This document shows positions 18,066 to 22,368 of a DNA stretch of 64,000 bases, one piece after another. Source of the stretch: Thioalkalivibrio sp. ALJ24 (GTDB lineage: Bacteria; Pseudomonadota; Gammaproteobacteria; Ectothiorhodospirales; Ectothiorhodospiraceae); the NCBI RefSeq assembly GCF_000377785.1, contig NZ_KB898727.1, positions 124,001-188,000 on the forward strand, in the 5' to 3' direction. Position 1 is the stretch's first letter; every line of letters begins with the position of its first letter. The translations under genes were made by a program, and so were the position numbers. The notes under the pieces were generated by a model. That model ran no database searches. It worked only from the letters and a program-made list of their open reading frames with translations, and was not told the origin of the DNA.

Positions 18066-18370
18066 TCGAGATCTCAGGTTTCGTAGCGCTGTATATCTTC
18101 ATGCTCGCGGCCTTCACCGGCTACGAGGTGATCTCCAAGGTGCCGGTCATCCTGCATACCCCGCTGATGTCCGGTTCCAACTTCGTCCACGGCATCGTCC
18201 TGGTCGGGACCATGGTCGCACTGGGCCACGCCCAGACGCCGCTGGAGCAGGCGATCGGCTTTATCGCCGTGATCCTGGCCGCCGGTAACGCGGCCGGCGG
18301 CTACGTGGTCACCGAACGCATGCTGGAGATGTTCAAGTCCAGCAAGGACGATAAGGGAGACAAGGCATGA
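18062..18370 (+). CDS. pntAB: NAD(P) transhydrogenase subunit alpha part 2, membrane
   Basis: The 102-residue membrane piece of the split alpha subunit, equal to the C-terminal helices of E. coli PntA. Three hydrophobic segments are visible (about residues 3-23, 38-57 and 64-83), with the typical SGFVALYIFMLAAFTGYEVI-like start and a charged tail SSKDDKGDKA. ATGA overlaps join it to pntAA in front and pntB behind, so the three are translationally coupled. Confidence 0.94.
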   Translation: MIEISGFVALYIFMLAAFTGYEVISKVPVILHTPLMSGSNFVHGIVLVGTMVALGHAQTPLEQAIGFIAVILAAGNAAGGYVVTERMLEMFKSSKDDKGDKA

Positions 18371-19755
18371 GTCTGATCATCAACCTCGCCTACTTCGTGG
18401 CGGCGGTGCTGTTCATCGTCGGCCTCAAGCAGATGTCGTCGCCGACCACCGCCCGGCCCGGCATCATCTGGGCCGGTGTCGGCATGCTGCTGGCCACCCT
18501 CATCACCTTCGTGCACCCGGAGATCTCCGGCGGCGTGAACTACACCCTGATCGTTCTGGGTATCGCCATCGGTGGCGCGCTGGCCTGGTGGAGCGGCAAG
18601 AAGGTCCAGATGACCGACATGCCGCAGATGATCGCGCTGTACAACGGCATGGGCGGCGGCGCTGCGGCCGGCATCGGTGCGATCTACCTGCTGCAGGCCA
18701 CCCCCGAAACGGTCACCACCACCGGCCTCGCCATCGCGGTGATCGGCTCGGTGATCGGCTCGGTAGCCTTCTCCGGCTCGCTGGTGGCCTACGCCAAGCT
18801 GCAGGGCCTGATGAAGAAGACCCTGAACTTCCCCGGACAGCAGCTGCTGAACCTGGTGATCATCGCCCTGGTGGTGATCCTCGGCTTCATGATGGCCCTG
18901 GGCGACGGCACCATCGGCGGCGGCACGCTGCTGGCGTTCTTCGTCCTTTCGCTGGCCTTCGGCGTGCTGATGACCCTGCCGATCGGCGGCGCCGACATGC
19001 CGGTGGTCATCTCGCTGTACAACGCCCTGACCGGTCTGGCGGTTGGCTTCAAGGGCATCGTGCTGGACAACCCGGCCCTGATGATCGCCGGTATCGTGGT
19101 CGGCGCGGCCGGCTCGCTGCTCACGCAGCTGATGGCCCAGGCGATGAACCGGCCGCTGAAGAACATCCTCTTCAGTCAGTTCGGTGGCGGTTCCGCCGCC
19201 GCGGAAGAGGAGATCGAAGGCACGATGAAGGAGATCCAGGCCAACGACGCCGGGATCATGATGGCCTACTCCAGCAAGGTGATCATCGTGCCCGGCTACG
19301 GCATGGCGGTGGCCCAGGCCCAGCACAAGATATGGGAGCTGACCGAGCTGCTGCAGAAGCGCGGCGTGGACGTGAAGTTCGCGATCCACCCGGTGGCCGG
19401 CCGCATGCCCGGGCACATGAACGTGCTGCTGGCCGAAGCCGGCGTGCCCTACGACATCATCTACGACCTCGACGAGATCAACGACGAGTTCAAGACCGCC
19501 GATGTCGCGATGGTGATCGGGGCGAACGACGTGGTGAATCCGGTCGCCCGGACCAACCCCGATTCGCCGATCTACGGCATGCCCATCCTCAACGCCGACG
19601 AGGCGCACAACGTCATCTGCGTCAAGCGCGGCAAGGGGTCCGGTTTCTCCGGCATCGAGAACCACCTGTTCTATGCCGAGAACAACCGCATGCTGTACGG
19701 CGACGGCCAGAAGGTCGCCGCGGAGCTGGTCGCCAGCGTCAAGGCGCTCGGCTGA
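18367..19755 (+). CDS. pntB: NAD(P) transhydrogenase subunit beta
   Basis: The 462-residue beta subunit supplies most of the proton channel and the NADP(H)-binding domain III. The first ~270 residues hold eight or nine hydrophobic helices; the C-terminal third begins near residue 300 with the NADP site VIIVPGYGMAVAQAQ and continues with HPVAGRMPGHMNVLLAEA and VVNPVARTNP. The gene ends the operon at a clear intrinsic terminator. The enzyme can make NADPH for CO2 fixation and biosynthesis. Confidence 0.95.
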   Translation: MSLIINLAYFVAAVLFIVGLKQMSSPTTARPGIIWAGVGMLLATLITFVHPEISGGVNYTLIVLGIAIGGALAWWSGKKVQMTDMPQMIALYNGMGGGAAAGIGAIYLLQATPETVTTTGLAIAVIGSVIGSVAFSGSLVAYAKLQGLMKKTLNFPGQQLLNLVIIALVVILGFMMALGDGTIGGGTLLAFFVLSLAFGVLMTLPIGGADMPVVISLYNALTGLAVGFKGIVLDNPALMIAGIVVGAAGSLLTQLMAQAMNRPLKNILFSQFGGGSAAAEEEIEGTMKEIQANDAGIMMAYSSKVIIVPGYGMAVAQAQHKIWELTELLQKRGVDVKFAIHPVAGRMPGHMNVLLAEAGVPYDIIYDLDEINDEFKTADVAMVIGANDVVNPVARTNPDSPIYGMPILNADEAHNVICVKRGKGSGFSGIENHLFYAENNRMLYGDGQKVAAELVASVKALG

Positions 19756-19832: not shown

Positions 19833-20142
19833 GTGGCTGTAACGCCCCGGGGGCTTGCAACTTGTACACAAGGCATGCAGGGGACGGACCGGCGAGGCGG
19901 AGAATATCCACTTGCGAAAATCAGCGCGCAAAACGTATTACATAAATAGCACAACTACCTGTTTTTAAGTGTTTTTCGAAAAGACTGGGCATTTTGTAGC
20001 CAATCTGTCATCGTCCGCGACACTACAAGGGTTTAGAAAGTTTCCCACCCTTTCTTCCACAGAGTTATCCACAGGTTCTGTGGACAACCACCAAAGCGCG
20101 CAACGGATTCGTGTGGGGCCCCGCCTCACGTACACTGCCCCC
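19833..20142. other. AT-rich intergenic region before priA
   Basis: About 310 bp without a gene. Bases 19937-20040 are strikingly AT-rich for this genome, with runs such as ATTACATAAATAG and TTTTTAAGTGTTTTT. DnaA-box-like sequences lie at 19862-19870 (TTGTACACA), 20065-20073 and 20079-20087. TACACT at 20131-20136 could be a -10 element placing the priA transcript start at or next to its ATG. Confidence 0.7.
20065..20087 (+). promoter_or_regulatory. Inverted pair of DnaA boxes
   Basis: TTATCCACA (20065-20073) is a perfect DnaA box. TGTGGACAA (20079-20087) is its inverse with one mismatch (TTGTCCACA on the minus strand). Together they form a near-palindrome with 10-bp arms and a 3-bp centre. 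The position, just below an AT-rich stretch and before priA, suggests DnaA-ATP binding for replication control or for priA regulation. Confidence 0.55.
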
Positions 20143-22368
20143 ATGTCCGACACCCCCTCGCCCATCGTCCGGGTCGCGATCGACCGCCCGCTGGACCGGC
20201 TGTTCGACTACCGTCTGCCGGCCGGCGTCGAGGCGGTGCCCGGGATGCGGGTGCGGGTCCCGTTCGGACCCACGCGCCTGACCGGCGTAGTGATGGAGGA
20301 CGGGGCCGACAGCGAGTTCGATCCGGCGCGCCTGCGGGCGGTCGCCGAAGTCCTCGACCCCACCCCCCTGCTGCCACCCAGCCTGCGCGAACTGCTGGCC
20401 TTCGGCAGCCGCTACTATCACCACCCGATCGGCGAGGTCGTGCTCGGCGCCCTGCCACCAGCCCTGCGCCGGGGTCGCCCGCTGCCCGAGGCAGCGACTC
20501 CGGAACCCCTGTGGGCCCTGACCGCGGACGGCCGCGCCGCCCTGCAGGCCGGTGCCATCCGGGGAGCACGCCAGCGCGCCATCCTCGCGACGCTGGCGGA
20601 CCCGGCCGCCGCCCCCGGCGGCCGCCTCGACCGGCCGACCCTTTCCGGCATCCTCGGGCGCCGGCCCGCCCCGCGCGAAATGGAGCGCCTGGCCGAACAC
20701 GGCTGGCTGGAATGCCGGACCCCGGACGATGCACCCCCGGACCCGGCGGATACCGATGCCGCAGCCGACCGCCCCCTGACCCCGGAACAGCAGGCTGCGG
20801 TGGACGCCCTCACGCCCGGCGAGGCCCGGCCGTTGCTGCTGGAAGGGGTGACCGGATCCGGCAAGACCGAGGTCTATCTGCGCATGGCGCAGCGGGTGGT
20901 CGCGCGCGGCGAACAGGTGCTGGTGCTGATCCCCGAGATCGCCCTGACCCCGCAGCTGGCCGCGCGCATCCAGGCACGTTTTCCCGGGCAGGTCGCGCTG
21001 CTGCATTCCGGGCTGGCCGAAGGCGAGCGCCTGCGGGCCTGGGCCAGCGCCGCGCGTGGCGACGCCCGGGTGGTGGTCGGCACCCGCTCGGCCCTGTTCA
21101 CGCCCCTGCCCGAACCCGGCCTGATCGTGGTCGACGAGGAGCACGACGCCGCGTTCAAGCAGCAGGACGGCTTTCGCTACAACGCCCGCGACCTCGCGAT
21201 CAAGCGCGGCCAGGTGGAGGGCATCCCGGTGGTGCTGGGTTCGGCCACCCCCACCCTGGAGACCCTGGAGGCCGCGCGTCAGGGCCGCTACACCCACTGT
21301 CCGCTGCGCACCCGCCCCGATGGCACCGCCCCGCCCCGCGTCGAGACCGTGGACACCCGCGTCCACACCCCGGACGAAGGCCTGACGCCGCCGCTGCTGG
21401 ACGCCATGCAGGCCACCCTGGCCGGCGGCCAGCAGTGCTTCGTGCTGCTCAACCGTCGCGGCTATGCCCGAACCCTGGCCTGCGACCACTGCGGCTGGGT
21501 CGCCGACTGCCGCCACTGCGACGCCCGCCTGACCATCCATGCCGGCCAGCCGCGGGCGGTCTGTCATCTGTGCGGGCACCACGAACCGGTGCCCGCCCGC
21601 TGCCCCGACTGCGGCGCCGAGCTGGCCCGCCGCGGGCTCGGCACCCAGCGCCTGGAACAGGCCCTCGCGCGGCACTTCCCGCAGACCCCGCTGATCCGGC
21701 TGGACCGCGACAGCATCCGCCACAAGGGCGCGCTGGAGGAGGCGCTGGAACGCATCCGCTCGCTGGACGGGGCGATCGTGGTCGGCACCCAGATGCTGGC
21801 CAAGGGCCACGACTTCCCGCGCGTGGGACTGGTGGGCGTGGTGGACGTCGACCAGGGCCTGTATTCGGTCGATCTGCGCGCCACCGAACACACCCTGCAG
21901 CTGATCGTGCAGGCGGCCGGGCGTGCCGGGCGCGGCGAGAGCGGCGGGCGGGTGCTGCTGCAGACCGGACACCCGGAACATCCCCTGATCCGCGGCCTGG
22001 ACGCCGACGACTACACCGCGATGGTGCGCCCGCTGCTGGACGAGCGCGCGGACAGCGGCTTCCCCCCGTTCGGCCATCTGGCCCTGGTGCGCGTGGAGGC
22101 CGCCGACGCCGCCACCGCCGAGGCCCGCGCCGGCGAACTGGCCGTGCCACTGCGCCAGGCGGCCGCCCCCGGGGTACGGGTCCTCGGCCCGGCCCCGGCC
22201 CCGCGCCACCGCGTGAACCGCCGCTACCGCGAACAGATCCTGCTCCAGTCGGGCGACCGCCGCGCCCTGCACGCGACCCTGCATCAGGCGCGCCGGGCGT
22301 GGGAAGGGATGAACCTGCCGCGCGAGCTGCGCATCGCCCTGGACGTGGATCCGGTCAGCCTCGCCTGA
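20143..22368 (+). CDS. priA: Primosomal replication restart helicase PriA
   Basis: PriA recognises stalled or recombined forks and reloads DnaB. The 741-residue product has the N-terminal DNA-binding domain, Walker A GVTGSGKTEVYL near residue 235, the DEEH box near 331, and the zinc cluster of eight Cys (CDHCGWVADCRHC, then CHLCGHH and CPDCG) at about 446-490. The frame stays open upstream to 19969, but that part is AT-rich intergenic DNA, and the ATG at 20143 matches family starts (SPIVRVAIDRPLDRLFDY). No good Shine-Dalgarno is seen. Confidence 0.96.
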   Translation: MSDTPSPIVRVAIDRPLDRLFDYRLPAGVEAVPGMRVRVPFGPTRLTGVVMEDGADSEFDPARLRAVAEVLDPTPLLPPSLRELLAFGSRYYHHPIGEVVLGALPPALRRGRPLPEAATPEPLWALTADGRAALQAGAIRGARQRAILATLADPAAAPGGRLDRPTLSGILGRRPAPREMERLAEHGWLECRTPDDAPPDPADTDAAADRPLTPEQQAAVDALTPGEARPLLLEGVTGSGKTEVYLRMAQRVVARGEQVLVLIPEIALTPQLAARIQARFPGQVALLHSGLAEGERLRAWASAARGDARVVVGTRSALFTPLPEPGLIVVDEEHDAAFKQQDGFRYNARDLAIKRGQVEGIPVVLGSATPTLETLEAARQGRYTHCPLRTRPDGTAPPRVETVDTRVHTPDEGLTPPLLDAMQATLAGGQQCFVLLNRRGYARTLACDHCGWVADCRHCDARLTIHAGQPRAVCHLCGHHEPVPARCPDCGAELARRGLGTQRLEQALARHFPQTPLIRLDRDSIRHKGALEEALERIRSLDGAIVVGTQMLAKGHDFPRVGLVGVVDVDQGLYSVDLRATEHTLQLIVQAAGRAGRGESGGRVLLQTGHPEHPLIRGLDADDYTAMVRPLLDERADSGFPPFGHLALVRVEAADAATAEARAGELAVPLRQAAAPGVRVLGPAPAPRHRVNRRYREQILLQSGDRRALHATLHQARRAWEGMNLPRELRIALDVDPVSLA

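Follow-up and report, generated by a model that had tools for sequence, protein, structure and literature searches.

We identified a 226-bp element upstream of priA in Thioalkalivibrio sp. ALJ24 that, judging from its sequence, is probably (roughly 80%) a DARS-type, DnaA-reactivating site. The element lies in a 64-kb stretch of DNA, the window, which corresponds to positions 124001–188000 of contig C4 of a 2.8-Mb genome in 20 contigs. A preliminary sequence-only reading had offered an origin, a DnaA-titration or reactivation site, or DnaA control of priA, and it was borne out in part: the reactivation reading was best supported, by the exact geometry of the core, by flank sites at fixed places and by recurrence across the class, while the origin failed. 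We infer the function of the element from work in E. coli together with its sequence.

Architecture of the element upstream of priA

The element (19862–20087, minus strand) occupies the gap between its upstream neighbor pntB (18367–19755, plus strand; NAD(P) transhydrogenase subunit beta, the top model, which scored under its cut-off) and its downstream neighbor priA (20143–22368, plus strand; primosomal protein N'), and is read from DnaA box I on the right to a distal box on the left. Box I (20079–20087, minus strand; TTGTCCACA) is the box closest to priA and is opposed to the two plus-strand boxes, box II (20065–20073), a perfect TTATCCACA, and box III (20053–20061), a weak TCTTCCACA with two mismatches to TTATCCACA. 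The minus-strand sequence at the right-hand end of the element runs TTGTCCACA, 5 bp, TGTGGATAA, 3 bp, TGTGGAAGA, a three-box array at 20087–20053 with offsets of 0, 14 and 26 and with box I reversed relative to boxes II and III. Past this core we located a sequence that fits the Fis consensus GnnYAnnnnnTRnnC perfectly (19987–20001, unstranded) at +86 from box I, an IHF-like site with one mismatch to WATCARNNNNTTR (19952–19964, minus strand) at +123, and a distal DnaA box, TTGTACACA (19862–19870, plus strand), at +217 in the orientation of boxes II and III. The lowest-GC 60 bp of the element (19936–19995, unstranded; 30% GC) takes in the whole IHF-like site and overlaps the Fis site in part.

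The perfect box, the inverted one-mismatch box 5 bp from it and the further one-mismatch box that the sequence-only reading had placed over these 226 bp were all located, and the weak two-mismatch box III, which it had not counted, completes the DARS geometry. Its description of the AT-rich run as rare here held as well: the 60-bp minimum of 0.30 GC (from 19936) was reached by a fraction of 2 × 10−5 of all 60-bp segments of the window, and the GC content was 46% in the element versus 68% in the window.

What is unusual about the boxes is their arrangement, not their number. The perfect box TTATCCACA at 20065–20073 was the sole TTWTNCACA of the window, and a single perfect box is unremarkable, because 0.35 were expected in 64 kb and at least one was present in 28 of 100 shuffles. 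Counting single boxes was therefore uninformative, and the whole genome held 7 occurrences of TTATNCACA compared with 12 of the reversed control. When boxes with no more than one mismatch were counted, position 5 being left free, the boxes at 20079–20087, 20065–20073 and 19862–19870 formed the only trio of the window contained within 300 bp.

Conservation in Thioalkalivibrio and its family

Conservation of the pnt–priA gap, which the sequence-only reading had proposed as a check, came out favorably: the pntB–priA gaps of the genus carried the exact core in 24 of 25 cases, and the last (L027) carried it with one mismatch. We aligned the 24 congener gaps, leaving L027, which lacks an exact core, and L028–L032 outside the alignment. 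Boxes I and II were almost invariant, the GTGG of box III (minus strand) was identical in 24/24, and each of the 24 had a Fis match, perfect or with one mismatch, at +75–95. At the place of the distal box, TTATGCACA was present in 9 of the 24, and most others had a TGTACA- or TACCCACA-type sequence there. At the pntB-side end of the gap, most of L005–L017 carried a conserved TGTACAG...TGTACAG dyad, possibly a repressor site, plus TACCCACA in place of the distal DnaA box. An IHF site at about +60, noticed by eye in some congeners, was dropped, as it was not kept in others; the supported place is about +120.

Exact cores were found in 42/47 genomes of the family, with zero matches to the reversed control in each. 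Four of the five misses (G002, G003, G008 and G009) contained cores with a single mismatch, in which box I was in most cases CTATCCACA, and the fifth (G046) had no core with up to two mismatches. In L031 and L032, two genomes from a different genus of the family, the priA gap had no core with up to four substitutions. G010 carried a one-mismatch core about 7 kb from dnaA, beside a helicase-like ORF (by eye) and outside the dnaA–dnaN gap.

A further core lay on a plasmid of Thioalkalivibrio sp. K90mix (predicted conjugative; NC_013930.1), where the three boxes were accompanied by a perfect Fis palindrome at +73 (L255 3478–3507, G016:C2:199977–200006), near a carbon storage regulator gene. The second contig of genome G016 (240,256 bases) was 100% identical to the plasmid record over 3,401 bases, and the strain was taken as K90mix. 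A plasmid-borne DARS could shift the initiation timing of its host.

Distribution and flanking sites of the core across the class

Among 369 class genomes, the exact core was present in 192, again with zero reversed-control matches in each, and was not matched in the remaining 177. When 0–24 bases were allowed between box II and box I, the gap was exactly 6 in 146 of the 150 matches listed (hand count); a match due to a short palindrome alone was ruled out, because the gap between the boxes is fixed. A scan by named species returned at least 117 stretches, of which 6 were titled with other groups and 7 just proteobacterium or Proteobacteria; the other 104 of these at least 117 we take, by their names, to be gamma- or betaproteobacterial. 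One of the stretches titled otherwise, L156, is probably misbinned, since it has both flank sites and its flanks group with those of gammaproteobacteria. None of the five named matches beyond both classes (L162, L163, L167, L221 and L249) had both flank sites, with a one-mismatch Fis site at +86 in L162 and an IHF-like match at +116 in L167, and these five may be due to chance. In an Alcaligenaceae MAG (L201 2482–3109), three cores stood in tandem about 300 bp apart.

We then compared the flanks of 177 core loci, which are not independent, as 30 came from the family search (11 of them Thioalkalivibrio priA loci also in the alignment) and related species recur. Loci with short flanks were excluded, 8/177 for the binned counts and 10/177 for the fixed places. 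Perfect Fis consensus matches fell in the +80–89 bin in 56/169 loci (1.7 expected from local shuffles), and perfect IHF consensus matches in the +120–129 bin in 23/169 (0.5 expected). With up to one mismatch, Fis lay at +85–87 in 115/167 loci compared with 2–12 in control windows of the same sequences, IHF at +118–123 in 87/167 compared with 0–4, and both sites together in 63/167.

The sites were also counted by neighboring gene (Fis at 75–95, IHF at 105–135, one mismatch), with matched controls for the pooled 167 loci alone. The priA loci outside Thioalkalivibrio had Fis in 20/27 and IHF in 23/27 (2 of 29 loci excluded), the rimO/gltA loci 19/21 and 17/21 (3 of 24 excluded), the xseA loci 14/17 and 10/17, the Thioalkalivibrio metG loci 7/8 and 4/8, and the other loci 59/78 and 47/78 (2 of 80 excluded), whereas the Enterobacterales uvrB loci had Fis in 2/8 and IHF in 6/8.

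Of the 177 core loci, 40 had a PriA match within 1.5 kb, 29 of these among the 147 loci from beyond the family search; the corresponding totals were 8 for MetG, 8 for UvrB, 7 for Mrp and 5 for BioD. DnaA, DnaN, MnmG, MioC, MutH and RppH were matched within 1.5 kb of 0/177, the MnmG query being a 378-residue part and the flanks of L074–L133 about 1.5 kb or less. Further recurrent neighbors were rimO, gltA and xseA (models over cut-off, one representative each), together with TolR- and Uup-like genes (under cut-off). Cores recur ahead of replication and repair genes, namely priA and xseA, uvrB in Enterobacterales and mutH in E. coli, which may reflect shared ancestry.

Co-occurrence with Fis and further copies in the ALJ24 genome

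In a set of 94 class genomes, 79 had a Fis match (1e-5), and the core was found in 50 of these 79 and in 0 of the 15 without a Fis match (Fisher P = 2.5 × 10−6, cross-tabulated by hand). Genome size, completeness and ancestry may confound this association, because 10/15 of the Fis-lacking genomes are 2.0 Mb or smaller and 4/15 are under 90% complete. The ALJ24 genome encodes Fis (a match), IHF alpha (over cut-off) and Hda (over cut-off).

ALJ24 carries a second core between metG and mrp/apbC (C1:315045). A third, degenerate core at C4:281725 was found by allowing two mismatches, upstream of an ORF that resembles RimO by eye. This RimO-side element (L037 3515–3726; C4:281514–281725) has a decayed box I and has kept a one-mismatch Fis site at +85 and the distal TTATTCACA; it looks like a DARS being lost, and full cores lie next to rimO in some relatives. 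The third genomic TTATCCACA (C7:118322) had no other box with up to one mismatch within 1.5 kb.

Alternative explanations for the DnaA boxes

DnaA boxes next to AT-rich DNA would suit an origin, present or former, so we assessed GC skew in 20 sampled 20-kb stretches of the K90mix chromosome, a complete congener in which the DnaA match starts at base 475 and priA occupies 252,934–255,114. The skew was 0.0006 in the stretch at dnaA, positive in 10 stretches from 140 kb to 1.24 Mb and negative in 9 from 1.36 to 2.62 Mb (the final one just −0.006). Directly past priA it was near zero (only 0.003 at 256–276 kb), as an origin there might show, but it was already positive before priA at 253 kb (0.034 at 140 kb, 0.053 at 230 kb) and changed sign at 1.24–1.36 Mb of 2.74 Mb, opposite dnaA. 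These signs place the switch points near dnaA and at about 1.3 Mb, not at priA, and the 64-kb window itself showed no clean switch at 20 kb. The skew and dnaA location that the sequence-only reading had named as checks thus went against its origin: in K90mix the skew switches near dnaA and not at priA, and in ALJ24 the full DnaA gene is on contig C6, not on the contig of the element. Sites resembling parS lay about 3–4.5 kb from the DnaA match in 5/8 genomes, and at one mismatch none was found in ALJ24 and two other genomes of the 8. The ALJ24 dnaA–dnaN gap (250 bp, 52% GC) has boxes of its own, six box-like sites with at most two mismatches, one of them without mismatch, and is likely oriC. 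The core geometry was absent from the 18-kb dnaA locus of ALJ24 and from the E. coli oriC locus, and 0/177 core loci adjoined dnaA, dnaN or mnmG in the flanks examined. On congener skew, parS and gene context, an origin at priA was rejected, with next to no chance of being correct.

The boxes might instead control priA transcription, with DnaA bound about 56–90 bp ahead of the start codon tuning priA over the cell cycle. The core was upstream of priA in 38 of 39 loci with a PriA start within 1.5 kb (one start, L140, extrapolated from residue 212; another, L166, 509 bp distant), box I pointed toward priA in 39/39, and E. coli DARS1 and DARS2 likewise sit in promoter regions, of uvrB and mutH (PMC5835720). 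By eye in the alignment, however, the core is separated from priA by a likely −10 box and so need not contact the promoter, and the same module with its flank sites is also found at genes unrelated to priA. Control of priA, which the sequence-only reading had raised, is thus conceivable as a side effect and does not hold as the general function, because the module also adjoins metG/mrp, rimO, gltA, xseA and uvrB; as the explanation of the element we consider it unlikely. DnaA boxes outside the origin are able to titrate DnaA. Such titration away from the origin, the subject of PMC12371093, could make the element a passive sink, or it could be a datA-like site promoting ATP hydrolysis on DnaA. 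Titration needs no fixed opposed spacing, yet one gap recurred in 146/150 matches listed; the element has just four boxes, and their arrangement is that of DARS, with datA known here by description. This part of the sequence-only reading survives with a slim probability and leaves the fixed geometry unexplained.

The DARS-type reading accounts for that geometry. The element has three DnaA boxes with box I facing against II and III; the window, the metG–mrp copy and E. coli DARS1 and DARS2 all have box starts separated by 14 and 12 bp; and the site is intergenic (pntB–priA gap) and lies between origin and terminus, since the K90mix priA site is some 255 kb away from dnaA and half of that chromosome measures about 1.37 Mb.

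Discussion

By analogy with E. coli, a DARS-type element here would act on DnaA in its ADP form. ADP-DnaA would bind boxes I, II and III, and the facing boxes I and II would place two DnaA AAA+ domains head to head, loosening the ADP. Fis, bound at +86, together with IHF, bound near +120, may bend the flank against the core and so time the reaction. The freed apo-DnaA would then take up ATP and could start a new round at oriC, sited elsewhere beside dnaA. The ADP release, the head-to-head contact and the roles of Fis and IHF are carried over from E. coli work, and binding and DnaA reactivation by the element in Thioalkalivibrio are predictions from its sequence.

The module bears on the reach of the ATP/ADP-DnaA switch outside E. 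coli. DARS-type control looks wider than E. coli suggests, because roughly half of the sampled relatives carry the module, often together with the two flank sites at their fixed places. As a fixed, searchable module with favored Fis and IHF places, it offers a direct route to DARS sites in many genera, and it suggests that the E. coli DARS layout is not the sole one. We tentatively propose, as a possibility less probable than its opposite, that the layout core–Fis(+86)–IHF(+120)–distal box is both ancestral and the most frequent one among Gamma- and Betaproteobacteria, that E. coli DARS1 and DARS2 are derived from it, and that the module has stayed ahead of genes for replication and repair, priA foremost, in which case DnaA recharging and fork-restart supply may be tied.

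Conservation of DARS has been described before. One review describes sequences like DARS1 and DARS2 as conserved across many species of proteobacteria (PMC10380432), another reports DARS-like sequences in the same locations in V. cholerae (PMC6090056), and two further papers describe conservation of the DARS2 flank in species close to E. coli, Vibrio and Shewanella among them (PMC8682772; PMC4245941). The open-licence literature yielded no paper on the priA site or the Fis-then-IHF order.

In E. coli MG1655, we located the DARS1 boxes in the bioD–uvrB gap at 2108(+), 2122(−) and 2134(−) of stretch L072, and the DARS2 boxes in the rppH–mutH gap at 1636(+), 1650(−) and 1662(−) of stretch L073; DARS2 deletion primers printed in PMC4585315 flank the latter array. 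The review PMC5742627 likewise gives DARS1 and DARS2 equal spacing, with box I opposed to II and III. With DARS2, upstream of mutH, the element has in common an identical core geometry, matches for both Fis and IHF, and a distal DnaA box some 210 bp away from box I. In DARS2, however, the order is core–IHF(+93, +109)–Fis(+145, perfect)–box(+211, opposite orientation), whereas the Thioalkalivibrio element reads core–Fis(+86)–IHF(+123)–box(+217), so both matches are there in reversed order; the neighbor genes also differ, the element adjoining priA and not mutH. DARS1 has the identical core geometry but, in the 260 bp examined, neither a perfect Fis nor an IHF match, and Fis only with one mismatch, at +145 and +219. 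A Fis-consensus match thus falls at exactly +145 in both E. coli sites (one mismatch in DARS1, perfect in DARS2), which may be chance. Because the Fis and IHF positions in DARS2 and DARS1 differ from those found here, the layout of the element is a variant. Likened by description, datA also has a DnaA-box cluster away from the origin and an IHF site (PMC5742627). The DARS of the ColE1 origin, likened by description and not by sequence, has three DnaA boxes, two of which need the right orientation (PMC5835720), but it sits on a plasmid origin.
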